Assembly (NCBI RefSeq): GCF_036568125.1 | Contig: NZ_DATCTF010000019.1 | Coordinates: 62,001 to 126,000, forward strand | Reading direction: 5' to 3' | Source of the DNA: Magnetovibrio sp. | GTDB taxonomy: Bacteria; Pseudomonadota; Alphaproteobacteria; Rhodospirillales; Magnetovibrionaceae | Length of the DNA stretch: 64,000 bases | Shown: positions 4,457-19,511 of the stretch, piece by piece | Layout: each line of letters starts with the position of its first letter | Numbering within the stretch: position 1 is the first letter of the stretch | Program-made: the position numbers and the translations under genes | The notes under the pieces: model-generated | The model's database searches: none | What the model was told of the DNA's origin: nothing | The model's input: the letters and a program-made list of their open reading frames with translations, nothing else

Positions 4457-4544
4457 GGAGAGGTGCCGGAGTGGTCGAACGGGGCGGTCTCGAAAACCGT
4501 TGTGCGCTTGCGTACCCAGGGTTCGAATCCCTGTCTCTCCGCCA
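4457..4544 (+). tRNA. tRNA-Ser (anticodon CGA)
   Basis: An 88-base gene with encoded CCA. The acceptor arm GGAGAGG pairs with TCTCTCC, the anticodon loop is CTCGAAA (anticodon CGA, reading UCG), and there is a long class II variable arm and the T-loop GTTCGAATC. The gene is intact at the left end of the integrated element; a partial copy marks the right end. Its own terminator has been moved 15 kb away, to 19512. Confidence 0.97.
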
Positions 4545-4549
4545 TTATT
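4485..4549 (+). repeat. Left attachment site, 65-bp direct repeat
   Basis: The 3' part of tRNA-Ser from the anticodon stem through CCA plus TTATT is repeated without mismatch at 19447-19511. This is the product expected from tyrosine-recombinase integration into a tRNA gene. The integrase gene starts 122 bases inside this copy. Confidence 0.93.
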
Positions 4550-4670: not shown

Positions 4671-5672
4671 ATGGCAACATTCACTAAACGTGAAGGGAAA
4701 AAGGGTGCATCTTGGCGCGCTCAGATTCGTCGCCAAGGCGTTCCCATCCAAACACGCACCTTTGCTAAGCGTAGCGATGCTCAAGCTTGGGCACGCGAAA
4801 TCGAAGGCATGATGGATAAACGGACATTTGTGCCCCTTGGTGACGCTGAAAACACCACGTTGCATACTGCCCTGGGACGCTACCTTATTGAGGTTACACC
4901 TCACAAAAAAGGCGCGAAACAAGAAACGGCGAGAATTGACCTTCTGCAAAGAATGAAATTATCAGAGTTCACGCTCACCCGCCTCCGTTCCGCAGACATC
5001 GCCAGTTGGCGCGATGATCTGGTCTCCATGGGTAAAGCTCCCACCACAATCCGCAACATGACCACGATCATTTCCCAAGTTTATGAGACGGCAAAATACG
5101 AATGGGGGATGGAGGGGCTGCACAATCCGGTCAAGGGCGTGCCGATGCCGAAGCACCGCCCTGGCCGCGATCGCCGTCTGGTCGATGATGAAGAAGACCG
5201 TTTGCTGAAGGCTTGCGAGGAAAGCCGGAGCCATTGGCTCAAGCCGATCACTATCATTGCTCTTGAGACCGGCATGCGGCTTGGCGAGATCCTCTCTCTT
5301 AAACGCACCAACATTGATTACAAGGTTGCTGTCGCTCACCTGCCGGACACCAAGAACAACACAGCCCGCGATGTGCCACTGAGCACTCGCGCTATAGAAG
5401 CGCTTCAGGCTGCTCCAGCCTCTACGGACAAGGAAGGCCGAGCCTTCCCTATCACCACCCATTCTTTCGAACACCACTTCAAAAAAGCCCGTCAATCTGC
5501 AGGGATCGAAAACCTACGTTTTCATGATCTTCGGCACGAAGCCACCTCTAGGCTATTTGAGCGGGGGTTGGATATAATGGAAGTCGGCCACATTACCGGC
5601 CACAAGACCCTCGACATGCTCCGTCGGTACACACACTTGAAGGCTTCGGATTTGGCAAAGAAATTGGGCTGA
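4671..5672 (+). CDS. int: Tyrosine recombinase (integrase)
   Basis: Catalyses site-specific integration and excision between the tRNA-Ser site and the element. The 333-aa product has an N-terminal arm-binding and core-binding part (about residues 1-160) and a catalytic domain with Arg203 (ETGMRLGEIL), His285-x-x-Arg288 (HDLRH), His311 (TGHKTL) and nucleophile Tyr320 (RRYTHL), so the full RHRY set is present. The gene lies directly next to attL and points into the element. It follows the candidate arm repeat and converges on the large gene on the opposite strand, with nine bases between stops. Confidence 0.95.
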   Translation: MATFTKREGKKGASWRAQIRRQGVPIQTRTFAKRSDAQAWAREIEGMMDKRTFVPLGDAENTTLHTALGRYLIEVTPHKKGAKQETARIDLLQRMKLSEFTLTRLRSADIASWRDDLVSMGKAPTTIRNMTTIISQVYETAKYEWGMEGLHNPVKGVPMPKHRPGRDRRLVDDEEDRLLKACEESRSHWLKPITIIALETGMRLGEILSLKRTNIDYKVAVAHLPDTKNNTARDVPLSTRAIEALQAAPASTDKEGRAFPITTHSFEHHFKKARQSAGIENLRFHDLRHEATSRLFERGLDIMEVGHITGHKTLDMLRRYTHLKASDLAKKLG

Positions 5673-5681
5673 TAAAGCCCC

Positions 5682-8135
5682 TTAGCGGTTCTTGGCGTAA
5701 TACTCACCCAGCCATGCGTGGTATGAGGGAAGGCCTAAGTACAATTGCTGTGTGAAATCGGACAGGTTTCTTAGGTTTGAAAGTTGTACTGACGAATGCT
5801 CAACAAGTTTAGCATGAGTACCACCAAGGTCTTCCCATGCCTTTTTCAAACTCCAGTTAGCAAACAACTCGTTACCCGTGAATACAATTAAAGAGGCTCG
5901 TGGCTCGCCTAAAGGTCCTGGCTCTCTTCCCCATAAGGCCAATTCTATTAATCGTTTCTGGTCATCAAGATTAAATTCTGGATTGAGTGTCGATACAACT
6001 AAGAAGGACCCGGGAAAGCGTTCGCCCAATGCTTTTAGCGTATCCAGGTCTGCATCCTTTAAGCACGGACTTGCAAAGCTTTTAGCTTCGCCAAAAATAT
6101 ATTGAACCTCACCTGCTTCATTGAACATACGGCTACGTTGGTAAAAAGCGACAAAATCAATCTCACGTTCTTTGTTCGGCAACTGAAGATGTACCCCAGT
6201 ACAGTAAGCCAGCTTGGCCCTCCCACCGAGAGAGAGCAACCTAGAAAACACCCGTAGCGATAAAATGGTTGAATAGGCCCCACGCGCATAATCCGGCTCT
6301 GCAAATGGCCCAACGGGGCGAAAATGCCATGGGCTTTTGCTGAACTCAAAGTCCCCTTGCGGAAAAGAAAATTCATTTAGGCAGAGCTCACAGGGAAGAC
6401 TGTATCCAATACCCTCTAGGCTGTACCAATTATCATGATCACAGTGAGAACACGGAACACTTAGGCCCAATCTGACGATGTTCATGTCTGTCAAGTGAGA
6501 CAGCTTGATAGTATCAAAATGACCTCTTCGACTTCTCGCTTTCAGCAAGTTTTTGAATTTTTGGGCTTGCACGCCTGTTGCTCTAAATTGTTGTTCTTGG
6601 CCATTTTCTGCACCAGATTTGTGCCGAATGCTCATGGCCGATGTATTTAGAATTTTGATCGTATCTGCATCCGCAAAAACGCTTGCATCATGCAGAGAGT
6701 GTATTTTTTTTATTGCCTGATTAGCTATACGGCCTTCATACGACGGGCGTGTTTTAATCCCATTCTCTTTGAACCAGCCTGAGATCAACTCCTCTCCACT
6801 TAGAAAGCTTATGTAAACTTGGCTATTTTTGTACTGCTGAAAAAACACCCACCCTTCTCTGGAAACCAAGGCAGCCTCCCCTCCACTATTCAAGCGAGGG
6901 AAATCGGGCGTTTTGTGGTTTGACGGCATTGCCAGTGCAATGTCAATCTCTTGACTATAAGAGCTAAAACTCAGGACATTTACCCACCTAGCGTCAGCTC
7001 CATATCTTTCTGCAAAATCTGGCGCAAGTGACTCAAACTTAGTCGAGCGATCACTTTTAGAAACTAAAGCTTCATGACTCGAAGATTTACTTGTTATTCG
7101 TACTTTTTGAGACTGCGGAGCGAGGTCTTCATCATCAGGTTGAGACCATATCGAATCATACCAAAGTTTTTTTGCCCACCCTTCTGTTCCAACTCCATCC
7201 CGAATTTTTTGTGACAATTCATCCACGATATTTTCTGGTATTGACCTGCCAAATTCGATTGTTGAATGAACCATCACTTTGTTTGGGTTTCCTGGGAGGG
7301 GCCTATGATTTTTTTTGATGAAATCAACTAAATAATTTTCAAAAGCGTCAAACCACCTAACATCAATTGCTACAACATCGCGTTTAAACAGCCGAATGTT
7401 CCAAGCATCTATTAAATCTAAGGAATTCCGACCATCGAAGATAAAGACAAGAGGCCTCCAATTATCGCTGTAATCAAGCTCAAGGTCATGTTTGGTTATT
7501 GAGAAAGGGGTGGCAAGCTTCTCTCGATACACTTTGAGTGCCGATTGAGCATCAGCCTTTAGAGTAATGGGTTCGAATACATCTCTATACCCTTGCTCAA
7601 CGAATTGAAGACCGGAGACCTCTGGAAAACCGCCAAACAAAACTTCTAATGAGTTTGAATATTTTCCACCTTTTACAAATTCAACAAATGGTTGGCCATC
7701 TTTACGGACAAATTGAAACATCTCACTATATAGGTGACGGTAATAATCAAATATATTCAAAGAACATCGAAAATCGAATTCTCCATGATGATTCTGGGTA
7801 ATGAATTTATCCAAAGGTACTATCAAATTTGTGAAGGATGTTTTTGTCGCAGCATAACCTAATTTTGCCGCCATACCGGGAACGGCTTCAACCAACACAT
7901 CCGGCTCAAAATACCTCAGATAGCCTTGTGCAAGATCACGCCCCCTCAATGAAAATACGCCCTCTTTCCATTTCGTTGGCAACCGGTCTGAAACAGGAAT
8001 AATCGGATTAAATTGCCCCCCCCAAAGACACGCACAATACCGGACAAATTGCATAATAGATTGCTTGTCTGACGGGTTGACTAACAACCCAACCCTCGTC
8101 GGCCTTAACCGGATATCTCCGTAGACTGTAGACAT
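5682..8135 (-). CDS. Unrecognised 817-aa protein with zinc ribbon and PD-(D/E)XK-like motif
   Basis: I do not recognise the family. The ATG at 8135 is preferred because GAGGAG lies seven bases upstream; the frame opens with a TTG 15 bases earlier. Visible parts: an N-terminal region of about 330 residues (RPTRVGLLVNPSD near the start); a middle region; CSHC...CELC, a likely zinc ribbon, near residues 560-585; and a C-terminal stretch with E-I-D-F (about 657) and GEAKS (about 682). The last two match the acidic and E-x-K strands of PD-(D/E)XK nucleases. There is no signal peptide or membrane segment. Codon use is AT-rich. Its place beside the integrase of a mobile element suggests a defence or restriction role, which is inference. 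Confidence 0.75.
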   Translation of the reverse strand: MSTVYGDIRLRPTRVGLLVNPSDKQSIMQFVRYCACLWGGQFNPIIPVSDRLPTKWKEGVFSLRGRDLAQGYLRYFEPDVLVEAVPGMAAKLGYAATKTSFTNLIVPLDKFITQNHHGEFDFRCSLNIFDYYRHLYSEMFQFVRKDGQPFVEFVKGGKYSNSLEVLFGGFPEVSGLQFVEQGYRDVFEPITLKADAQSALKVYREKLATPFSITKHDLELDYSDNWRPLVFIFDGRNSLDLIDAWNIRLFKRDVVAIDVRWFDAFENYLVDFIKKNHRPLPGNPNKVMVHSTIEFGRSIPENIVDELSQKIRDGVGTEGWAKKLWYDSIWSQPDDEDLAPQSQKVRITSKSSSHEALVSKSDRSTKFESLAPDFAERYGADARWVNVLSFSSYSQEIDIALAMPSNHKTPDFPRLNSGGEAALVSREGWVFFQQYKNSQVYISFLSGEELISGWFKENGIKTRPSYEGRIANQAIKKIHSLHDASVFADADTIKILNTSAMSIRHKSGAENGQEQQFRATGVQAQKFKNLLKARSRRGHFDTIKLSHLTDMNIVRLGLSVPCSHCDHDNWYSLEGIGYSLPCELCLNEFSFPQGDFEFSKSPWHFRPVGPFAEPDYARGAYSTILSLRVFSRLLSLGGRAKLAYCTGVHLQLPNKEREIDFVAFYQRSRMFNEAGEVQYIFGEAKSFASPCLKDADLDTLKALGERFPGSFLVVSTLNPEFNLDDQKRLIELALWGREPGPLGEPRASLIVFTGNELFANWSLKKAWEDLGGTHAKLVEHSSVQLSNLRNLSDFTQQLYLGLPSYHAWLGEYYAKNR

Positions 8136-8393: not shown

Positions 8394-8675
8394 TCAGTTC
8401 AGATAGCCTCTTCGGGCCATGACCTGAACCTCAGAGACATCACCATCTATGCCATACCAAACAGTGGCGATACGAAATGCAATCGCATTGTGATAGGGAT
8501 CAAACCGGATTGCCTCAATCGATCCCAAGGGGAGCTCTAGAGTGTTTTCAAGCTCGCCTGACAAGTCCAATATTTTGTGGTCATATGTGGCCTGATCACA
8601 GTCCATATATGCCTCATCGATTACAACTTGATAGTCTACACAGACTTTCCTTGCTTCCTTCCATTGTAGCGCCAT
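8394..8675 (-). CDS. Small hypothetical protein, coupled to VirB6-like gene
   Basis: A 93-aa product starting at the ATG at 8675, which overlaps the stop of the upstream gene (TGATG), with GGAGGGAG upstream. An upstream in-frame start at 8714 would lie inside the preceding gene and is less likely. The sequence is acidic, without membrane segments or cysteine motifs (a single Cys pair is widely spaced). It contains LSGELENTLELPLGSIEAIRFDP, here cited only as the most ordered stretch, and I know no family for it. Tight coupling to the TrbL/VirB6-like gene suggests a partner role, possibly immunity or regulation. Confidence 0.6.
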   Translation of the reverse strand: MALQWKEARKVCVDYQVVIDEAYMDCDQATYDHKILDLSGELENTLELPLGSIEAIRFDPYHNAIAFRIATVWYGIDGDVSEVQVMARRGYLN

Positions 8676-10093
8676 CACTCCCTCCCCTTCGGCTTTGATG
8701 AATCTGATGCCCACGCATCTGTGCCAGCCGAACCCTTCTTAGGCATTGGACCCATTTCCATATCCGAAAATGGGGCACGACCACTCACATCGGAATTAAT
8801 CGGCGGCGGTACCACAGGGTTCACCGGACCGCCACGCAGCGGATCACCGCCGGTCCCGCTATCGTCAAGGCGGCTCCCGATTTCACCTCCAATATTTCGT
8901 GTCAAATTGGTTCCACCTCGTACGGATTGACCAAACACATTCTTCGACATTGCAAGACCTACTCCTGCCGCACCGGTAATCACGGAGGCAACACCAGCTG
9001 CTGCACCTGGCCCATCTTGAGCACCGGCCAAGTTACTCGCCCAGGTCTTTGCCTTAAGGTGTAACAGAACCGAGATGAAACCAATTGCTATGAGCTGCAT
9101 ATAATATGAATCGAAAAGGCTGAACGCTGGCGCCGCCAAAATGGCCACTTGCTCTCGTGCATCTAAACATCTTTTTTGAGCATCGTTTCCTTTTTCACGT
9201 GCCTCGTTCCACTGATCAAACCAGTTCTTTGATGGGTCAAAGGTACCGTCCGTAAACAGTGGATTGATGTCCGGTGCAATCGCACAAAGTTCATCGGCTT
9301 TCTGCTGCGCTTCTGCAACGCGCTCATGCGTTTCATCTGTACTCGGATCAAGAACGGAACGAACCGTTGCTTGATGAGTTTGTATCGCGAACCCGGTGAA
9401 GCTGATCACGACAGATGCCAACATCACGGTCAACATCGCACCAAGAAGAATACGGCCCATGGCATGAAGATAAACGCGCCCCGGCGGAGCGACATAAACT
9501 GCTAACAACAGCGGAGCCATAATGCCTGCTATCGCGAACATAAATGCAGCTTCAATCATAAATGCTGCCTGCAATATGACGATAAATAGCCACGGTGCGA
9601 GTAAGAGCAAAGCACCGAAGAACCGCTCAAAAATTTCTAGGTTGTACCAAGGCGCACCAGTGATAATTTTTGTGGCAAGAACAATCACCCATTGAACCAT
9701 ATATTCCACCTGCCAAACGAGGCGCGTGTATAGGGTATATTCCTTCGGTGGATGCTGTGAACTGGCAGGAGAGAACTCCTGCATCATCGCCTCCGCGAAA
9801 GCCACCGCAAAGTTCTGCATTGGCCACAACAAGAATTCAAAAATGAACATGGGTGAGGCAAAGGTAACCACCACGACAGCTGTAATCAGCATCAGTTTTG
9901 GAAATGATGAAGCAGCTTGGCTCACGTACCCGCGATCGATGACCAATCGCAAGCCCATAACGACGACGACAAGTGTAAGAATGCTCTTCGCGACTGGATA
10001 GATTCCGTCATAGAAAATGGTAGAGCCACGGATTGCAAAATCATTCGTAAATGTGGTCAAGTCCTGAGCGAATTGACAAGTGAAGCATTCCAT
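8675..10093 (-). CDS. TrbL/VirB6-like polytopic membrane protein
   Basis: The 472-aa product has a cysteine pair near the N-terminus (CFTCQF), several hydrophobic segments between about residues 30 and 230 and one near 330, and a soluble, Pro/Gly-rich tail. This arrangement and residues such as SILTLVVVVMGLRLVIDRG resemble inner-membrane channel subunits of type IV secretion systems. No other VirB/Trb gene is nearby, so it is an orphan. It overlaps genes on both sides by one to three bases in a leftward three-gene unit. It could contribute to mobilization or entry exclusion, or form the membrane part of a separate effector system. Confidence 0.6.
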   Translation of the reverse strand: MECFTCQFAQDLTTFTNDFAIRGSTIFYDGIYPVAKSILTLVVVVMGLRLVIDRGYVSQAASSFPKLMLITAVVVVTFASPMFIFEFLLWPMQNFAVAFAEAMMQEFSPASSQHPPKEYTLYTRLVWQVEYMVQWVIVLATKIITGAPWYNLEIFERFFGALLLLAPWLFIVILQAAFMIEAAFMFAIAGIMAPLLLAVYVAPPGRVYLHAMGRILLGAMLTVMLASVVISFTGFAIQTHQATVRSVLDPSTDETHERVAEAQQKADELCAIAPDINPLFTDGTFDPSKNWFDQWNEAREKGNDAQKRCLDAREQVAILAAPAFSLFDSYYMQLIAIGFISVLLHLKAKTWASNLAGAQDGPGAAAGVASVITGAAGVGLAMSKNVFGQSVRGGTNLTRNIGGEIGSRLDDSGTGGDPLRGGPVNPVVPPPINSDVSGRAPFSDMEMGPMPKKGSAGTDAWASDSSKPKGRE

Positions 10094-10548
10094 TACGACA
10101 GCTCCTTTGGTCCGCCATTTTGCTCACCAAATGCAGAACTGCGCCATATAGCCCATGCCAAAAATAAGAAGCCGAAAAAGAGCGAGGCATCTTGCCAATT
10201 TGGTCCGTTCCTGAACGCAAGATAAGCAAGCGGAATATAAATCAGAGCCAAATAGATGAAGGCGTGCTTTTTGGCGAAGGGATGCCCCGGAATCAAAGCC
10301 GTTAAGAAAGACGATTTTGCGGAAGGTTTGCTTGCGTCAGACAACGGCAATGGAGCGGTCAATATTTCATGACCGCGCGCCTCCCATTTGCGACGCTCTA
10401 GCTCTGGCAAATTTGCGTATGCAACCAGGCCATTAATACCCTGCGTATCTTCGCAAACGCCGTGCTCAGAAAGATATGCGTGCACACCCAAGCACAGCGC
10501 GCTCACATGATCGCCATTGGAGATGTGTGTGTCGTCAGATTGTTCCAT
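10093..10548 (-). CDS. Hypothetical protein with two C-terminal membrane helices
   Basis: A 151-aa product from the ATG at 10548, supported by AAGGAGG seven bases upstream; the frame is open further upstream but has no comparable signal. Residues 1-80 are soluble, with a DTQGINGLVAYANL segment. Residues about 100-140 hold two hydrophobic helices (FIYLALIYIPLAYLAF and ASLFFGFLFLAWAIW). It is the first gene of the leftward unit with the TrbL/VirB6-like gene, and its stop overlaps that gene's start. Function unknown; the context points to a membrane complex. Confidence 0.6.
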   Translation of the reverse strand: MEQSDDTHISNGDHVSALCLGVHAYLSEHGVCEDTQGINGLVAYANLPELERRKWEARGHEILTAPLPLSDASKPSAKSSFLTALIPGHPFAKKHAFIYLALIYIPLAYLAFRNGPNWQDASLFFGFLFLAWAIWRSSAFGEQNGGPKELS

Positions 10549-10645
10549 AGGAACCTCCTTAATTTTTGAAACGCTTTCCGATCTCCCTTTGCGGTTCAAA
10601 ATGGTTAAGACGACACATCTGCAACGGTATTTCATCCAGCTACTT

Positions 10646-10675
10646 TTGACAAGCCTAAAATGTATTAGTTATAAT
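10646..10675 (+). promoter_or_regulatory. Promoter for mobC-relaxase
   Basis: TTGACA, an 18-base spacer, then TATAAT: both hexamers match the sigma-70 consensus exactly. It lies 88 bases before mobC, and the oriT-like inverted repeat falls in the transcribed leader, so binding of MobC there could autoregulate the operon. Confidence 0.7.
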
Positions 10676-10683
10676 AGTGCTGG

Positions 10684-10716
10684 CGAGGATAATGTCATAC
10701 GCATTCGCGTAACATT
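10684..10716. other. Candidate oriT: inverted repeat with nic-like motif
   Basis: An imperfect inverted repeat, AATGT-CA-TACGC with GCGTA-ACATT around a 4-base loop (10691-10716), abuts TATCCTCG on the minus strand (10691-10684). The latter differs at one position from the YATCCTG-Y nic consensus of MOB-P type origins. It lies directly upstream of mobC and the relaxase gene, the usual place for an oriT. Functional assignment is inferred. Confidence 0.45.
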
Positions 10717-10762
10717 ACCACCAGCTTTCGCCCACGCCTTCGGCGGAGCTCAAGGACACAAA

Positions 10763-11116
10763 ATGACAAAAGCCCCCCCAAAAAAAACTAAAGAGCACCG
10801 TGAGCGTGTTTGGTCTGTCCGCTATAACGCGACTGAAAATGAACGGCTTGAATTACTAGCCGCTGACGCCGGATTTCAGAGCACATCCACCTATATTCGG
10901 AACGCTTCTCTTAAAGAGATTTTCTCTCGGACAGATGCAAAGACAATTCGTCAATTAATGATACTCGGAAACAACCTCAATCAGCTCACTCGCAAAGCAC
11001 ACGCAGATGGTTTTTCAACGATTGAAGAACGCATCCTGAGGCTTATTGATGAGATTGATAATTCAGTCCGGTGCATAGGCAAAAAAAATGATCACAAAGA
11101 AAATTCTGAAGCTTGA
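10763..11116 (+). CDS. mobC: MobC-like relaxosome accessory protein
   Basis: A DNA-binding accessory protein that helps the relaxase open oriT. The 117-aa product from the ATG at 10763 (AAGGA upstream) has the N-terminal ribbon-helix-helix-like segment RVWSVRYNATENERLELLA and the MobC signature LMILGNNLNQLTRKAH around residue 75. The frame extends upstream to 10517, but that part has no family resemblance and runs over the promoter. It overlaps the relaxase gene by 29 bases, which indicates coupled translation. Confidence 0.82.
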   Translation: MTKAPPKKTKEHRERVWSVRYNATENERLELLAADAGFQSTSTYIRNASLKEIFSRTDAKTIRQLMILGNNLNQLTRKAHADGFSTIEERILRLIDEIDNSVRCIGKKNDHKENSEA

Positions 11117-12968
11117 AGACGACCCCTCAAGGAGGACATTAAAAGGGTCATCTCATGATGAAGAACGAGCCACAAGATTGCTCGTCAGAGGCAAGCGTAT
11201 TGGCATCATCGGGCCATCTAAAAATGTGTCTAATTCCAATCCACAAGGAAACCGCCGAACCGTTCCGGCCGTGCCTGTAGGATCAACGCCACGACCACGG
11301 TTTCAACATCGCCAAGATGCAATCCAACTTGCCGAATATTTTCTTGAAGGGGAGCCAGACGCCAATGGCGAACGCCCCCACAAAGACGGTAAGGGGCGTG
11401 TCGAATATGCAACCTCGATAAATTGCCAATTACCTGACAAGAAGCCCCTCAGCGCCGAAGAAGTTCGGCGCGTAGCAAATTGGATGGGGGAGACCGCTGC
11501 CCTCAACACGCGCGCCCGAAAAGCGTCCACACTTCACTATGTCGTCTCACTCCATGAGATCGATGCCGACAAATCCACTCCCGAACTTTGGAACGACACT
11601 GTAGAGCGCATGTTGAAAAGTTTAGGAATGGATGAGCACCAAGCATTGTTGGTCATCCATGGCGATACTGACAACCCACACATGCACATCATGGTCAATC
11701 GCGTACACCCGACAAAGCATACCGTAGCAGATCCTCTACGCGATCTAATTGCCCTGGAAGAATTAAACCGACAGCTTGAAAAAGATTACGGTCTGCGCGT
11801 TGACAAGGGACGCCATATCGATCCCGTGACAGGCCAGACCTACGACTGGGATAAAGTCCGCAAAGGCGAGATACACGTCCCTAAAAATCGAGCTCGTAAG
11901 TCTCGTATTGAGATGGAGAAATTTGCCCGGCAGGTTAAAAAAGATTTGGCAGATAAACCATTTTCCACGGCCATAAGTTGGGATCAACTTGAAGAACGCT
12001 TGTCTAAAAATGGATATCACCTCAAACCCTCCGGTCGAGGCATGAAAATATGCGACATCGCCGAAAACGAAGTGAAACTGACAAAGATTGCCGGCAAAGG
12101 AAATGGCCGTGAAAAACTCGAAGAAAGGCTTGGTCCTTGGAACGATTATCTAGCCTCAATCGAACTAGAAAATACTCGTGAGATGGCGCAAGAAGACGGT
12201 CAAAGCGAGAAGCCTGCCTTGCCACTGGGTACGCAAGAGAAGCTAAACAAACCTGATCCCCTTGCTGAATTTCGCCCCTCCCCAATTGGAAAGCCGCAAC
12301 GATTAAATTACCGAGATGACAAAGAGCCTAGCGAGGAGGAAGAAAGCCAAATCGACAAAGGAGAAGACAATAAACGCGATGAAAAGAAATGCATTTACCG
12401 CAAGCAGATCGATAAAATCAAAGGGCACCCCTGGGTTGTTGGCATTAACCTACCGGAATGTTCCGAAATTAAAAACGAATCAGAGCTCAGAGAATTGATT
12501 GCATTCATGACCCCCAACGAAAGAATGGGGACCTACTGTGCAACAAAAGCACAACACGAGAAGATGATTGCAGCTGATGCGCCATGGCTAGAACTAAGGC
12601 AAATTGAGAAGACTTTAGGTAGGATAGAAAGGTCACTCGACGGCAATCAACTTGAAGTGATCAATCTGGCTCCGCTCGCAGTTGACCCTGAAAACGAATC
12701 AGACAAAGCCTGGGCACGTGGAACGCTTGATTTAAAAACTGAAAAGCATATTGGGCAACTTTTGGAAGCCACATGGAACGCTCATGTTCTCGCAAAGAAG
12801 AATATGAACAACAGGATCAATCCATCTGAAAATGCAAAAATGTCATCTCAGCACAGAGCTGCATTCAATCTAATTAAAGCATTCATGCACGAAAAGGGCA
12901 TGGCTATACCGAATATGTTCCACCCAAATCAAACAAAGAGAAGCAGAGGACGTGGGCGGGGCAATTAA
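11088..12968 (+). CDS. mobA: MobA/VirD2-type relaxase
   Basis: Nicks oriT and leads the strand during conjugative mobilization. The 626-aa product carries the three-histidine metal motif in HGDTDNPHMHIMVNRVHP at about residues 190-207, preceded by STLHYVVSLHE, the conserved strand of relaxase domains. An N-terminal extension of about 80 residues precedes the domain, and the C-terminal half (about 290-626) is charged and unassigned. No primase or helicase domain is recognisable. It is encoded directly after MobC, on the same promoter. It supports classification of the island as mobilizable. Confidence 0.88.
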   Translation: MITKKILKLEDDPSRRTLKGSSHDEERATRLLVRGKRIGIIGPSKNVSNSNPQGNRRTVPAVPVGSTPRPRFQHRQDAIQLAEYFLEGEPDANGERPHKDGKGRVEYATSINCQLPDKKPLSAEEVRRVANWMGETAALNTRARKASTLHYVVSLHEIDADKSTPELWNDTVERMLKSLGMDEHQALLVIHGDTDNPHMHIMVNRVHPTKHTVADPLRDLIALEELNRQLEKDYGLRVDKGRHIDPVTGQTYDWDKVRKGEIHVPKNRARKSRIEMEKFARQVKKDLADKPFSTAISWDQLEERLSKNGYHLKPSGRGMKICDIAENEVKLTKIAGKGNGREKLEERLGPWNDYLASIELENTREMAQEDGQSEKPALPLGTQEKLNKPDPLAEFRPSPIGKPQRLNYRDDKEPSEEEESQIDKGEDNKRDEKKCIYRKQIDKIKGHPWVVGINLPECSEIKNESELRELIAFMTPNERMGTYCATKAQHEKMIAADAPWLELRQIEKTLGRIERSLDGNQLEVINLAPLAVDPENESDKAWARGTLDLKTEKHIGQLLEATWNAHVLAKKNMNNRINPSENAKMSSQHRAAFNLIKAFMHEKGMAIPNMFHPNQTKRSRGRGRGN

Positions 12969-13211: not shown

Positions 13212-13395
13212 TAAAGACCTCGCGGAGAAGTCTGGGGTGTCTCTTCCGACCGTAAAAAGGCTGGAAACAAGAGAGGGCGAATTAGGAGCTCACGCAAGCA
13301 CCGTCGCTGCTTTAAGAGCTGCCTTAGAAGCCGCTGGCGTCCATTTTGTGGATCCTAACGGCATGGGACCGGGGGGGGGCGGTTGCGTCAGAAGG
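13198..13395 (+). pseudogene. N-terminally truncated XRE-type HTH regulator remnant
   Basis: The frame reads KDLAEKSGVSLPTVKRLETR, a helix-turn-helix, then ALRAALEAAGVHFVDPNGMGPG, the ending of a common family of small XRE-like regulators. The first 20 or so residues normally found (helix 1) are missing and replaced by the 28-bp repeat; a stop lies 13 bases upstream of the only GTG. The ending runs through a G9 tract into a shifted frame. With one extra G the frame would join that of the TIR gene. It is either a dead fragment or one half of a slippage-controlled fusion. Confidence 0.6.
13371..13379 (+). repeat. G9 homopolymer between HTH remnant and TIR gene
   Basis: Nine consecutive G. The HTH frame and the TIR frame differ such that a G10 allele would make one continuous HTH-TIR reading frame, so the tract could act as a contingency switch. 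Assembly error in a homopolymer is an equally simple explanation. Confidence 0.7.
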
Positions 13396-13403
13396 ATAAA
13401 CTT

Positions 13404-14126
13404 TTGGATATTCACTCTCAAAAATTTGATGTCTCACTCTCCTTTGCTGGAGAGGACAGGAAGTACGTCAACGAAGTGGCCCAACAGCTTGTGGATTTAG
13501 GCTTCTCCGTTTTCTACGATAAATATTTTGAAATTGAGCTAATTGGCCTCGAACTCGTGTCTACGCTCCGAGATATATATGGGCAACGGTCTAGGTACAG
13601 CGCTGTATTCATTTCAGATCACTATTTACATAAACGCTGGACAGAACGGGTAGAATGGGAAGCAATTTTAGACAAGTCAACCTTAACGAGCCGCAGCTTT
13701 ATCATCCCAATCAAACTAGATGAATCATGGCTCCCAGGCTTACCTAGTTCTTACGGCTATATCGATGCATGTCAACTGCCCCCCGAATCTGTAGCACGTA
13801 AAATATCTCAAAAATTAGGCACGCCGACGATTAACGTAGAATCTGACGCAGAGCTTTTCACTCTTCTTGCCTCAGATTTTCACCTTGTATGGCAGTTCAT
13901 GCAAGAATTCCGCGATGCTCCTAACCGTTGGATGGCGACATTCAGGAAAGACCCTATTGATATTGAAGTCTTAGAAAAATTTGGGCAAGAACTTGTTCAA
14001 TATGACTTGGCAACAGTTGATAGCTCATTAAACGGTGACGGCGATTATTGGGTGGACATAAATCTGACTGATAGAGGAATTAGATTCATGTCTCACTTGA
14101 GGCAGAATCTAGTACCTAATTGGTAA
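13404..14126 (+). CDS. TIR-domain protein, candidate defence effector
   Basis: TIR domains of bacterial defence systems cleave NAD+ or make signalling nucleotides from it. The product (240 aa from the TTG at 13404, which has AAGGA seven bases upstream; TTG 13383 is an alternative) opens with FDVSLSFAGEDRKYVNEVA, the first TIR strand and box 1, then DLGFSVFYDKY and RVEWEAIL, whose glutamate near residue 84 is the likely catalytic residue. The TIR domain ends at about residue 140. The last 90 residues look like a small winged-helix-type domain but are not assigned. No sensor partner is adjacent except the broken HTH gene. Confidence 0.78.
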   Translation: MDIHSQKFDVSLSFAGEDRKYVNEVAQQLVDLGFSVFYDKYFEIELIGLELVSTLRDIYGQRSRYSAVFISDHYLHKRWTERVEWEAILDKSTLTSRSFIIPIKLDESWLPGLPSSYGYIDACQLPPESVARKISQKLGTPTINVESDAELFTLLASDFHLVWQFMQEFRDAPNRWMATFRKDPIDIEVLEKFGQELVQYDLATVDSSLNGDGDYWVDINLTDRGIRFMSHLRQNLVPNW

Positions 14127-14237: not shown

Positions 14238-14540
14238 TTAACCGCATGCCATCATGGCACCCTCAGGGACGTGGATGCGTTGAACCTTTGGCGGATTGCT
14301 CTCCTTAGCAACCTCAAGGTCATAGTGAGCCTGTAGGTTGGTCCAGAATTCTGGCGTTGTGCCGAATGCTCCAGACAGCCTGAGAGCCGTGTCTGCGGTA
14401 ATCCCACGGTGGCCGTTCACCAGGTGAGTAATACGGTTTGTGGGCACACCTAGGGCCTCAGCCAGCTTGTTAGCGCTTAGCTCCATTGGGACCATGAATT
14501 CTTCTTTTAAAATCTCTCCAGGATGAATGGGGGCAATCAT
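14238..14540 (-). CDS. higA: HigA-type antitoxin
   Basis: Antitoxin and repressor of the HigBA pair. The 100-aa product starts with IAPIHPGEILKEEFM and has an XRE helix-turn-helix (LSANKLAEALGVPTNRITHL), the standard HigA/VapI layout. The ATG at 14540 has GGAG upstream. It follows higB by 21 bases in the toxin-first order typical of higBA. It probably binds the near-palindrome at 14863-14884 in front of higB. Confidence 0.92.
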   Translation of the reverse strand: MIAPIHPGEILKEEFMVPMELSANKLAEALGVPTNRITHLVNGHRGITADTALRLSGAFGTTPEFWTNLQAHYDLEVAKESNPPKVQRIHVPEGAMMACG

Positions 14541-14561
14541 CACTGCTCTCCTTGCCGGGTG

Positions 14562-14843
14562 TTAGTGGTAATCTACAATCTCTACGTCGTAAGCGTCTCC
14601 GTCCTTCCATACAAAGCAAACGCGGTATTGATCGTTGATCCGTATTGAGTGTTGCCCCAGCCTGTCTCCCTTGAGGGCTTCAAGCTGATTGCCTGGAGGG
14701 CACGTAAGGTCCCTAAGCTCCCTAGCCGCATGGACCATAACCAGCTTCCGTAGGGCAACACGGTCAAAGGCTCGCCATTTCCTGTGGAACTTCTCCCTCT
14801 TGAATAGGGCCTCTGTAGCTTTGTCGCGGAAGCTCTTAATCAT
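14562..14843 (-). CDS. higB: HigB-type mRNA interferase toxin
   Basis: RelE/HigB-fold ribosome-dependent RNase. The 93-aa product has IKSFRDKATEALF, the LEALKGDRLGQHSIRIND strand and YRVCFVWKDGDAYDVEIVDYH, all typical of the family and full length. It is the first gene of the toxin-antitoxin pair. A 22-bp near-palindrome lies 20 bases upstream of its ATG. It may stabilise the integrated element. Confidence 0.92.
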   Translation of the reverse strand: MIKSFRDKATEALFKREKFHRKWRAFDRVALRKLVMVHAARELRDLTCPPGNQLEALKGDRLGQHSIRINDQYRVCFVWKDGDAYDVEIVDYH

Positions 14844-15389: not shown

Positions 15390-16256
15390 ATGGAAGAGAT
15401 TCTGTCGATCACGAAGAAATATGATGAGGCATATGTTCAGGAGGGATTTGAAAACCTCGAAAGTCTCAAGACCTTCTCGCTCGTCTTCTACAAAGATGTG
15501 GCGGCGATTTACGACTGCATTACGAGGATCAAGAACGTAGAGCGGAACCCTTCGGGCTTCTCGATAGATGATGCCCCGGTTCTCGGCTTGCTAGTACGTG
15601 TCTGGAAACTTCTGAATGAGGTCATTGCCTATTACGAACAGGATAACGCTGAGATTATCAGCATCATAGAGCGTCCCCTCATCGAGGCGGCGGTGGTTGC
15701 TACCTACCTGATGTCGCACGGTGACGACGTAATCGTAGACTACCGGAAATGCTCTTACAAAGATCGCTTAAGAATTCTTCGTGATCTCGAAAGTGGCTCT
15801 GCCTTCTATGAAACCAAGGCGGGAAAACGACTACTCAAATCGGTGCAAGAGAAAATGGCATTTGAGGGCCTAACGAAAGACGATTTTGACGATCAAAAAA
15901 AGAACCGCTGGCGCATTCAAGGAAAAACCTTCTTTGATATCTTCGCTGAAGTCGAGCATGAAGATTTATATGCGGCGACGTATGGGATGATGTCGGAATC
16001 GATTCATGGTTCATGGAACGAGTCCATGGATTGGTGCCTGGCCAAAGAAGATGACGGTACGTTCAAGGCGTATCCGTTTCATTATCCTGCTGATGTTCGG
16101 TTTGCTTCTCCGATGTTGCGCTTTACCAATAAGCCCTATCGTCTCTGGCTACAGCGTATTGATGCCTACGACGACGGGCTGAAGGCACAACTTGACTGGA
16201 TTGAGCGAGTCAATAACGCATTATTTTTGAAATTTGATGAGAAATTTGATGGTTAG
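15390..16256 (+). CDS. DUF5677-like (HEPN-related) protein
   Basis: The 288-aa product resembles DUF5677 proteins: an all-helical sequence with ERPLIEAAVVATYLMSH in the middle and MMSESIHGSW near residue 205. The family has no settled biochemical role but is repeatedly associated with HEPN-type proteins. No signal peptide or membrane segment is seen. The next gene starts inside its last codons, so the two products are made together. An inverted repeat sits directly before the ATG. With the ApeA-like neighbour it forms a candidate two-gene abortive-infection unit. Family call moderate, role inferred. Confidence 0.6.
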   Translation: MEEILSITKKYDEAYVQEGFENLESLKTFSLVFYKDVAAIYDCITRIKNVERNPSGFSIDDAPVLGLLVRVWKLLNEVIAYYEQDNAEIISIIERPLIEAAVVATYLMSHGDDVIVDYRKCSYKDRLRILRDLESGSAFYETKAGKRLLKSVQEKMAFEGLTKDDFDDQKKNRWRIQGKTFFDIFAEVEHEDLYAATYGMMSESIHGSWNESMDWCLAKEDDGTFKAYPFHYPADVRFASPMLRFTNKPYRLWLQRIDAYDDGLKAQLDWIERVNNALFLKFDEKFDG

Positions 16257-17772
16257 ATCAAAAGCCGATTACGATGGTCTCTTTCTGCCACGCGACGGTG
16301 TAGGCACAGGCCACCTGAACATTTCCGGGAAGGATACACAGCTAAAATTACTAAGTGCAGGTCCCTGGGAAGGAGGGGATGAAGAGTTTCGAGATTTACA
16401 TGGTGTTCTAAGCGACGGAACGAAAGCCTCCCTGATCGAGTGCGTCTGGTTGGGAGCGACAGATCATCGCTGGGGGGAGGAGACACAGTCTGAGCAGAGA
16501 TTTTTTCCTCACTACGTGCTTACAGGGGAATCATATATTTCATCCGGTGAAGATAAGATAAGAGCTATCAATTATCATTTCGAAAACGTCCATTGTCTCG
16601 TGAATGGTTTCAAAACTTTCGGGAACATTCATCCAACTCAAGATGAATTTAGAGACATCCTGAAGTCAGAGCACGAAAGGCATCAGGGAATTGCAGAAAA
16701 CCATAATTGGGGAACTTCCGAATTTGATCCTGAAATAGGCGATCACCCTTTTCTCATGTATTTCAGTGGTCTGTGGGAAATTGTGAAATGTCATGCCGAA
16801 CTTGGTGCTGTAAGCTTGACGAACCGTTCGTCGCATGGCTTCGGTAGCTCGCAGGGCGTCGGCATAAAAAACGAAATCACTGTGAATCTTGAGTTCGCGA
16901 ATTTAATGCCGGTCTCGAAAGCCTTCCAATCATTAAGCATATTGCACAGCTTCTTTGAGTTGTGCCTTGGAAGAAGACAGCGTTACCTATGGATTGAAGC
17001 CGTATTGGACGATAAAGGTGTCGAGTCCAGTGGACGGATGCCGCCCCAGTTAGATGTCCATTGGAGTTATTGTAACGAGCAGATCACAGGTGAAACCGAA
17101 CCCACACAGTATGGGGACATCCTAATTGATCCCGGAGCAGAAAAAGAAGAATTCTCCAAGATGCTCTCAGGTTGGTTAAACACCAATTCTGTTATAGGAG
17201 AGGCTCGGGGTAGATTTTCCAGCGCATTCCATTCTGGGGCGTACGGCATAGATCGTATCGTGGGGGCGGCCAACATGTTTGACCTTCTCCCAGAATCTCA
17301 TGTTCCCGCAAAGATCGAACTGGATGATGAAACAAATGCGGCAGTGGAAACGTGCCGAAAACAGTTTAAAGGACTTCCTGATAGTTTTGCCCGACAGTCT
17401 GTCCTCTCTGTGTTAGGGCGGGTAGGCACGGCGAGCCTCCGCGACAAAATTTGCCATAGAGCCGATATATTAATCAAAGCCGCGCCAGAGAAATTTGCAG
17501 AAATACATTTGCCTTGCAGTCAGGCAGTCCACTGCCGGAATCATTTTGTCCACGGAAGTGATGTGGCGTTCGATTACAGAGAACATTTCAATGGGTTTGC
17601 TTTTCTCGTCGATACGCTTGAGTTCGTTTTCGCTGCCTCTGACCTTATCGAACTAGGATGGGACTATAACAGTTGGCGCGCAAAGGGGTCTTCTTTGAGC
17701 CATAATTTTGGGGCTTATGTGGTTAATTACGAAGGCAACCTTCGAATTCTAAAGGGCCTATTGAAGTCTTAG
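16249..17772 (+). CDS. ApeA-like HEPN protein, candidate abortive-infection RNase
   Basis: ApeA proteins are HEPN-type anti-phage RNases that cut tRNA. The 507-aa product has an N-terminal beta-rich region (LPRDGVGTGHL, then GVLSDGTKASLIEC) resembling the ApeA N-terminal domain and a helical C-terminal part with RNHFVH at about residues 430-435. This is the R-N-x3-H form of the HEPN catalytic motif, followed by GSDVAFDY. The start is uncertain: ATG 16249 has GAGAA upstream; ATG 16237 is also in frame. It overlaps the DUF5677-like gene by eight bases. No membrane segment is seen. Confidence 0.68.
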   Translation: MVRSKADYDGLFLPRDGVGTGHLNISGKDTQLKLLSAGPWEGGDEEFRDLHGVLSDGTKASLIECVWLGATDHRWGEETQSEQRFFPHYVLTGESYISSGEDKIRAINYHFENVHCLVNGFKTFGNIHPTQDEFRDILKSEHERHQGIAENHNWGTSEFDPEIGDHPFLMYFSGLWEIVKCHAELGAVSLTNRSSHGFGSSQGVGIKNEITVNLEFANLMPVSKAFQSLSILHSFFELCLGRRQRYLWIEAVLDDKGVESSGRMPPQLDVHWSYCNEQITGETEPTQYGDILIDPGAEKEEFSKMLSGWLNTNSVIGEARGRFSSAFHSGAYGIDRIVGAANMFDLLPESHVPAKIELDDETNAAVETCRKQFKGLPDSFARQSVLSVLGRVGTASLRDKICHRADILIKAAPEKFAEIHLPCSQAVHCRNHFVHGSDVAFDYREHFNGFAFLVDTLEFVFAASDLIELGWDYNSWRAKGSSLSHNFGAYVVNYEGNLRILKGLLKS

Positions 17773-19446: not shown

Positions 19447-19511
19447 CGGTCTCGAAAACCGTTGTGCGCTTGCGTACCCAGGGTTCGAATCCCTGTCTCT
19501 CCGCCATTATT
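19447..19511 (+). repeat. Right attachment site, 65-bp direct repeat
   Basis: Perfect copy of the tRNA-Ser 3' portion (anticodon stem to CCA plus TTATT) without the 5' half, so it is not a functional tRNA gene. It marks the right junction of the element. Confidence 0.93.

Follow-up and report, generated by a model that had tools for sequence, protein, structure and literature searches.

An 817-residue protein with a predicted PD-(D/E)XK nuclease core and a zinc ribbon on an integrative element of Magnetovibrio sp.: a candidate single-gene defence effector

Introduction

What purpose does a single large gene serve beside the integrase of a mobile element, when its product matches no Pfam, NCBIfam or PADLOC profile? 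The question is raised by a stretch of 64,000 nucleotides from Magnetovibrio sp. (contig NZ_DATCTF010000019.1, positions 62,001 to 126,000; the window hereafter), in which an element of 14,962 base pairs (bp), measured repeat to repeat, carries a gene for a protein of 817 amino acids (aa) at 5682-8135 on the minus strand. Predicted fold and sequence motif together give good support for a nuclease in the C-terminal half of this protein. For the protein as a whole we favour, with a probability of about 0.58, a nuclease encoded by one gene and active only under certain conditions, which would act against phages or other elements and travel as mobile-element cargo.

Gene and domain layout

The interval 5682-8135 is a single uninterrupted frame of 817 codons on the minus strand; a plus-strand reading was rejected, as stops occur throughout. 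The ATG is preceded by GAGGAG, a possible ribosome-binding site, and the stop codon lies convergent to that of the tyrosine integrase with 9 bases between the two. The G+C content (GC) of the gene is 43%, against 47% across the whole element. A large single gene adjoining an integrase had been described in the initial annotation, and this holds: the frame is intact and the integrase matches PF00589 (E-value, E, 3.4e-31). That annotation left the strand unstated and missed three features: where the element ends, which further defence-like genes it carries, and the resemblance of the nuclease fold to Can2/Card1. The domains of the protein are the following.

5682-8135, minus strand: gene of the 817-aa protein, which has an N-terminal alpha/beta domain, a zinc ribbon and a predicted PD-(D/E)XK core (open frame, relatives, structure model)
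7158-8135, minus strand: proposed sensor, alpha/beta domain, residues 1-326, with conserved RPxR, WGG and WN (models, invariant columns)
6804-7157, minus strand: mostly beta strands, residues 327-444 (secondary structure of the model)
6477-6803, minus strand: helical part, residues 445-553, inside the range matched by Can2, Card1 and Cdn1 (model and structure matches)
6360-6476, minus strand: zinc ribbon, residues 554-592, with C562, C565, C582 and C585 (identical in 40 of 40 rows, invariant in 42)
5856-6338, minus strand: predicted PD-(D/E)XK nuclease core, residues 600-760 (helix and strand order, structure matches)
6081-6164, minus strand: putative catalytic motif, residues 658-685, E658-x-D660...E683-x-K685 (conservation)

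The window protein had 0 matches in Pfam, PADLOC 2.0.0 and NCBIfam at E <= 10, which is consistent with the earlier statement that no named system has such a layout, and sequence-level searches of solved structures with the whole protein or either half gave nothing credible.

Predicted structure of the C-terminal half

AlphaFold2 was run on a 42-row alignment that includes three very divergent relatives, and gave a model with a mean predicted local distance difference test score (pLDDT) of 86.3 and a predicted template modelling score (pTM) of 0.86. In the model, an alpha/beta domain (residues 1-326) is followed by a region of mostly strands (327-444), by six helices and three short strands (445-553) and by the zinc ribbon (554-592). 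The PD-(D/E)XK core then has the order helix-strand-strand-strand-helix-strand (H620-633, E641-652, E655-666, E678-685, H694-706, E710-716); its second strand carries E658 and D660 and its third E683 and K685. Both marks of the PD-(D/E)XK superfamily are found, the core topology in the model and a (D/E)...(D/E)xK motif that is invariant in the 42 rows. The stretch that the initial annotation had judged compatible with such a nuclease thus lies in a predicted restriction-endonuclease core, the lack of which had been named beforehand as evidence against the idea.

In a Foldseek search of the Protein Data Bank (PDB), one match was obtained at E <= 0.001, Cdn1 with cA4 (3.0e-4, probability 0.99); the match is partial because the template modelling (TM) scores are 0.18/0.33. 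In VIA-align, all of the top 13 rows (Z 8.0-10.8) were Cdn1, Can2, Card1 or VC1899, to which residues ~445-790 are alike in predicted fold: Cdn1 reached Z 10.8 (225 residues, 4.7 A), Can2 9.8 (200 residues, 4.8 A), Card1 9.6 (189 residues, 5.5 A) and VC1899 9.4 (212 residues, 5.2 A). After this group came FokI (7.8), S-layer proteins (7.7 to 6.8, on the N-terminal part), MspJI (6.0), SfsA (6.0), AgeI (5.8) and HamA (5.6). VIA-align often reaches a best Z of 7 to 8 with structures that are unrelated, so that the Can2 group stands out and the other matches support the fold only. In the viral structure library there was no match at E <= 0.001. HamA of Hachiman, a defence nuclease that works with the helicase HamB, has a related fold, the match being weak and over part of the nuclease only (129 residues); unlike HamA, the family studied here has no constant partner gene at the relatives' loci.

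Can2, Card1 and Cdn1 are DUF1887 CARF nucleases of type III CRISPR. Can2 and VC1899 are reported to share an extra element beside the core, four helices flanking two antiparallel strands, with active residues E276/D278 and E291/D293 for Can2 and VC1899 (PMC7969007); for Cdn1, Mg2+ is reported near E308, E310 and E323, and K325 at the RNA (PMC12825302). The layout of E658, D660, E683 and K685 is the same as the E-x-(D/E)...E-x-K of Cdn1, the E-x-D is also that of Can2 and VC1899, and a sensor part first and a nuclease last would be common to Can2, Card1, Cdn1 and the window protein.

The differences are of size and of composition. Can2, Card1 and Cdn1 have about 370-440 aa, against 817 aa here, and the window protein has a zinc ribbon, a beta-rich region and an N-terminal domain not recognised as CARF. 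A sequence match to the family was looked for and not obtained: PF09002 is absent among the 17 Pfam families that the 42 members matched at E <= 10, and a profile of the C-terminal half matched none of the solved Can2/Card1 members in the PDB. The protein is therefore not counted as a member of the Can2/Card1 family; its nuclease domain is of Can2 type at the structural level only (Z 9.6-10.8 for Cdn1, Can2 and Card1), and on the model the catalytic half appears to be built like Can2 and Card1. No CRISPR linkage was seen, the relatives' neighbours having had no search aimed at Cas10.

Conservation of the zinc ribbon and the putative active site

Ten residues do not vary in any of the 40 rows of an alignment of full-length sequences, which includes the window protein as well as L002 and L020 from the same genome (relatives and their loci are given L numbers): C562, C565, C582, C585, E658, D660, G682, E683, K685 and S686. 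The CxxC...CxxC pair and the E-I-D...GEAKS stretch picked out in the initial annotation are these residues (E658-I-D660...G-E683-A-K685-S), and since both are identical throughout the 40 aligned sequences, the zinc-ribbon and catalytic motifs are, to judge from the alignment, more than chance. In 42 rows all ten but S686 are still invariant. The complete set of invariant positions in the 42 rows comprises R11, P12, R14, W38, G39, G40, D79, G168, W245, N246, F374, G557, C562, C565, W570, C582, C585, R606, G609, G619, E658, D660, G682, E683, K685, E756 and L757. The cysteines, the E-x-D and the E-x-K are kept in L051 (same order, 40% identical) and also in L004, a part of a distant relative that matched the family profile. 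Several of the 42 members have weak matches to zinc-ribbon Pfam families, in agreement with a zinc ribbon in the protein. In PADLOC, two of the 42 members have weak matches, one to PDC-M33C (5.1e-4) and the other to BrxD (0.0074), both probably chance; ten chosen members, eight of them in divergent or deep branches, gave 0 matches.

A second, divergent clade was seen (L004, L005, L048, L049, L050), with 17-20% identity to the window protein and the same architecture; its full-length members have the same invariant zinc and catalytic residues. The clade is probably larger than the five found.

N-terminal domain

Residues 1-326, folded alone on 44 rows (pLDDT 89.0, pTM 0.89), are predicted as a confident alpha/beta domain without clear relative, and no PDB sequence match to the domain was found. 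Three Foldseek matches at E <= 0.001, two glutamate racemases and an adenylate-forming enzyme, have TM of at most 0.25 (50 matches listed), and the best VIA-align match is a C. difficile S-layer protein (Z 7.7); at these scores none of the three likenesses was used. An internal duplication was rejected: the profile-profile score was 13.5, and 3 of 20 column shuffles scored higher. A ligand or contact site may be marked by the invariant motifs RPxR, WGG and WN.

A nuclease half most like Cdn1, Can2 and Card1 could suggest a second-messenger effector, with the N-terminal part a diverged CARF-like domain that a cyclic oligonucleotide from another system would switch on. We consider this quite improbable: there is no SMODS cyclase in the own genome, and its three Cas10-palm family matches are GGDEF/GGEEF proteins (the same family also matches in the E. 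coli control). The listed Foldseek and VIA-align matches of the N-terminal model include neither CARF nor SAVED chains, though a diverged CARF-like domain may still be present. Cyclic-oligonucleotide control as in Can2 is possible but unsupported.

Distribution of the family

When 84,980 species genomes were scanned by profile for two short N-terminal patterns, 94 stretches matched; 43 of these encode members of the family, a lower bound for the relatives. A scan with the single protein gave six pattern-matching stretches, none a relative. Of the 43, three are truncated (L040, L042, L047), one carries a frameshift (L035) and three are highly divergent (L048-L050); L002 and L020 share a genome, and so do L003 and L042. 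The hosts are Pseudomonadota (many families), Poribacteria, Planctomycetota, Nitrospirales and Acidobacteria, and further Acidimicrobiaceae, Anaeromyxobacter, Dadabacteria and Methylacidiphilales. Among plasmids there was one match, a Photobacterium damselae plasmid (L006; 32% identical over the whole length), and 1 of 21 candidate stretches from viral contigs is a relative (L007). A translated search of phage records gave no match at E <= 0.01, and a DNA-level search of E. coli genomes none. No description of the family was recognised in the openly licensed literature.

The family is sparse and scattered over many phyla. Own genome included, the gene is present in 2 of 60 related genomes and in 4 of 398 genomes of the phylum sample; the own genome is the only positive in the class sample (385 genomes). 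On the tree, 7 label changes are required to place the Pseudomonadota, and well supported branches force at least 6 of them; the Poribacteria are one clade, and the window protein groups with Anaeromyxobacter, not fully supported (94/95). Proteins 92% identical occur in Sandaracinobacteroides and Ancylobacter genomes, which belong to different families. Horizontal spread is likely on these sequences, with the qualification that contigs of foreign origin may be present in metagenome bins. Some copies lie between ordinary genes, which might suggest an ordinary nuclease of DNA repair or housekeeping. We regard this as highly improbable: the gene is absent in 58 of the 60 related genomes and in 394 of the 398 genomes of the phylum sample, in the window it is element cargo, and one relative (L035) reads as a frameshifted remnant.

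Gene neighbourhoods

Forty-five loci were examined, namely the window, L006, L007 and 42 genome loci; truncated loci were kept, L002 and L003 were dropped as repeats and L033 as almost a duplicate of L032, and L051 was not in the set. A tyrosine integrase lies near the gene in 5 of the 45, at 10 (window), 20 (L017), 61 (L044), 97 (L020) and 431 bp (L015), and a resolvase less than 2 kb away in 3 (L019, L023, L025). L006 is the plasmid locus and L007 the viral contig locus, whose early genes we take to be Mu-like. Fourteen of the 45 loci have a recombinase within 2 kb or a type I restriction gene within 4 kb, or lie on a plasmid or viral contig. Homologues consistently in housekeeping contexts, which had been set down in advance as speaking against defence, are not what is found.

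The integrase as direct neighbour in five loci, together with the plasmid and viral contig copies, would also suit a gene that serves the mobile element itself (element competition, stability or transfer control) in place of phage defence. Several copies nevertheless belong to restriction operons or stand by themselves on the chromosome, no integrase having been seen close to them, and there is no antitoxin-like constant partner; this explanation is judged rather unlikely.

In three Poribacteria loci (L034, L038, L045), hsdS begins 5-13 bp downstream of the family gene; hsdM is found upstream at a distance of 3.2-3.6 kb and hsdR downstream at 1.3-4.3 kb, and these genes share one orientation. 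The type I restriction operons span L034:4642-18329, L038:5113-16764 and L045:4971-19824, with the family gene between hsdM and hsdS; those of L038 and L045 hold AAA-ATPase-like genes too (locus assignment read from translations). In L008, hsdM is 1.4 kb from the gene. These operons, and structure matches that include MspJI, which is modification-dependent, and FokI, bring in the foremost alternative, a modification-dependent (type IV-like) or restriction-partner nuclease, whose N-terminal and beta-rich parts would read DNA and which would cut modified or foreign DNA without a separate trigger. The nuclease core fold is indeed held in common with FokI, MspJI and AgeI. Unlike such restriction enzymes, however, the window protein has no DNA-reading domain recognised by Pfam, modified-base readers included, and the 42 members gave only weak, chance-level scores, though a reader of unfamiliar type may be present; its N-terminal fold yields no DNA-binding relative; and a methyltransferase is no regular partner, hsdM-like genes being found in 4 of 45 loci and most loci having no methyltransferase found nearby. 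The alternative is accordingly held to be unlikely, if less so than the others.

Of the 124 neighbours scanned here with Pfam, 4 match AAA_21 and 3 match DUF3696. L008 also holds a HerA gene, beside which is a gene that presumably encodes a SIR2 protein; a SIR2 match (2.2e-120) was obtained in 1 of 148 neighbours scanned, which neighbour being not identified. The Pfam and PADLOC tallies cover 272 of 312 neighbour open reading frames (ORFs), list the best 25 families, name the matching member for the first only, include cross-hits and are for descriptive use; the other 40 ORFs are a batch of 39 and one over-long ORF.

A 441-aa gene stands directly upstream of the relative in Roseobacter (L015:8639-9964, L020:8676-9961; the L020 copy is in two shorter frames) and is confined to that clade. 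At L025:8870-9898 and L047:2628-3755, a gene bearing what we take to be an HNH-endonuclease-like motif adjoins or immediately precedes the relative.

Proposed function

In the favoured reading, that of a conditionally active defence nuclease, the C-terminal half (~445-790: helical part, zinc ribbon and PD-(D/E)XK core) would be a metal-dependent nuclease with its active site at E658-x-D660...E683-x-K685. The N-terminal domain (1-326), via the beta-rich region, would keep the nuclease off until an infection cue appears, which could be a small molecule, a nucleic acid or a phage protein; once triggered, the nuclease would cut nucleic acid, DNA more likely than RNA. Cutting, gating and defence by the protein are thus inferred. 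Activity is probably conditional, because most copies are without a methyltransferase or a constant partner, and the N-terminal domain would be the natural place for control. Defence seems the most economical explanation of where this lone nuclease is found: in restriction operons, on a plasmid, on a viral contig and, in the window, on an integrative element beside TIR and ApeA/HEPN genes.

Several observations weigh against this reading. The N-terminal domain is without recognisable ligand-binding relative, so that gating is conjectural. The likeness to Can2 is purely structural and partial, without a sequence match. In 31 of 45 loci the surroundings are unclassified or the gene lies among ordinary genes; in L012, L028 and L030 the neighbours are presumably metabolic or ribosomal. 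The nearest same-order copy, L051, appears to stand alone amid housekeeping genes, with a probable polA ~1.8 kb away. The three restriction-operon loci are a single Poribacteria clade. There is no constant partner gene: when 726 locus ORFs were clustered, no non-family cluster occurred in more than 6 loci. Finally, the neighbour counts have no matched background and describe rather than test, because the recombinase seeds were taken from the same 45 loci.

A bolder form of the reading, which we put forward tentatively and with less than even confidence, is a new class of single-protein immune receptor, in which an undescribed alpha/beta sensor of ~326 residues directly gates a Can2/Card1-type nuclease and which mobile elements and restriction operons carry from one phylum to another. 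If this is true, one polypeptide does the work for which type III CRISPR uses Cas10, a second messenger and a CARF nuclease. If the N-terminal gating is true, a Can2/Card1-type nuclease is placed outside CRISPR, and the question becomes which signal is read by the new sensor. The family is in any case a testable candidate for defence, with named catalytic residues, and the window protein is missed by Pfam, NCBIfam and PADLOC profiles.

The mobile element and its other cargo

A perfect direct repeat of 65 bp, made up of the last 60 bases of tRNA-Ser and 5 more, bounds the element, which has a GC of 47% inside and flanks of 61% and 57%. Its gene content suggests an integrative mobilizable element whose cargo includes several genes of defence-like type.

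4457-4544, plus strand: tRNA-Ser(CGA), proposed integration site (ARAGORN)
4485-4549, plus strand: left copy of the 65-bp perfect direct repeat
4671-5672, plus strand: tyrosine integrase of the element (PF00589, E as above)
10517-11116, plus strand: NikA/MobC-like mobilization protein (PF21983, E 7.8e-12)
11088-12968, plus strand: MobA/VirD2-type relaxase (PF03432, E 1.1e-24)
13383-14126, plus strand: TIR_2 protein, cargo (PF13676, E 2.2e-14; PADLOC PDC-S66 1.8e-14, ThsB 4.4e-6)
14238-14843, minus strand: helix-turn-helix (HTH) protein and HigB-like toxin gene pair, cargo (PF01381, E 1.3e-8; PF05015, E 3.9e-18)
15390-16256, plus strand: DUF5677 protein, cargo (PF18928, E 1.6e-25)
16234-17772, plus strand: ApeA N-terminal domain (NTD)/HEPN protein, cargo (PF18862, E 8.3e-17; PF18739, E 2.3e-5; PADLOC PDC-S58 2e-6, weak)
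19447-19511, plus strand: right copy of the 65-bp perfect direct repeat

In a check of six related genomes for the empty site, the left flank with rplU was found beside tRNA-Ser in four and in one more as short matching pieces, and the right flank beside tRNA-Ser in none of the six; the exact empty junction was not seen because ~1.5 kb was compared per side and one locus ends just past the tRNA.

Upstream of the 817-aa gene and on the same strand, 8394-8714 (minus strand) encodes a 106-aa protein without Pfam or PADLOC match. The TIR_2 and ApeA-NTD/HEPN genes are further candidate defence genes, their PADLOC matches being distant. A membrane protein is encoded at 8675-10093 (minus strand), likewise without Pfam or PADLOC match; we take it to be similar to VirB6/TrbL.

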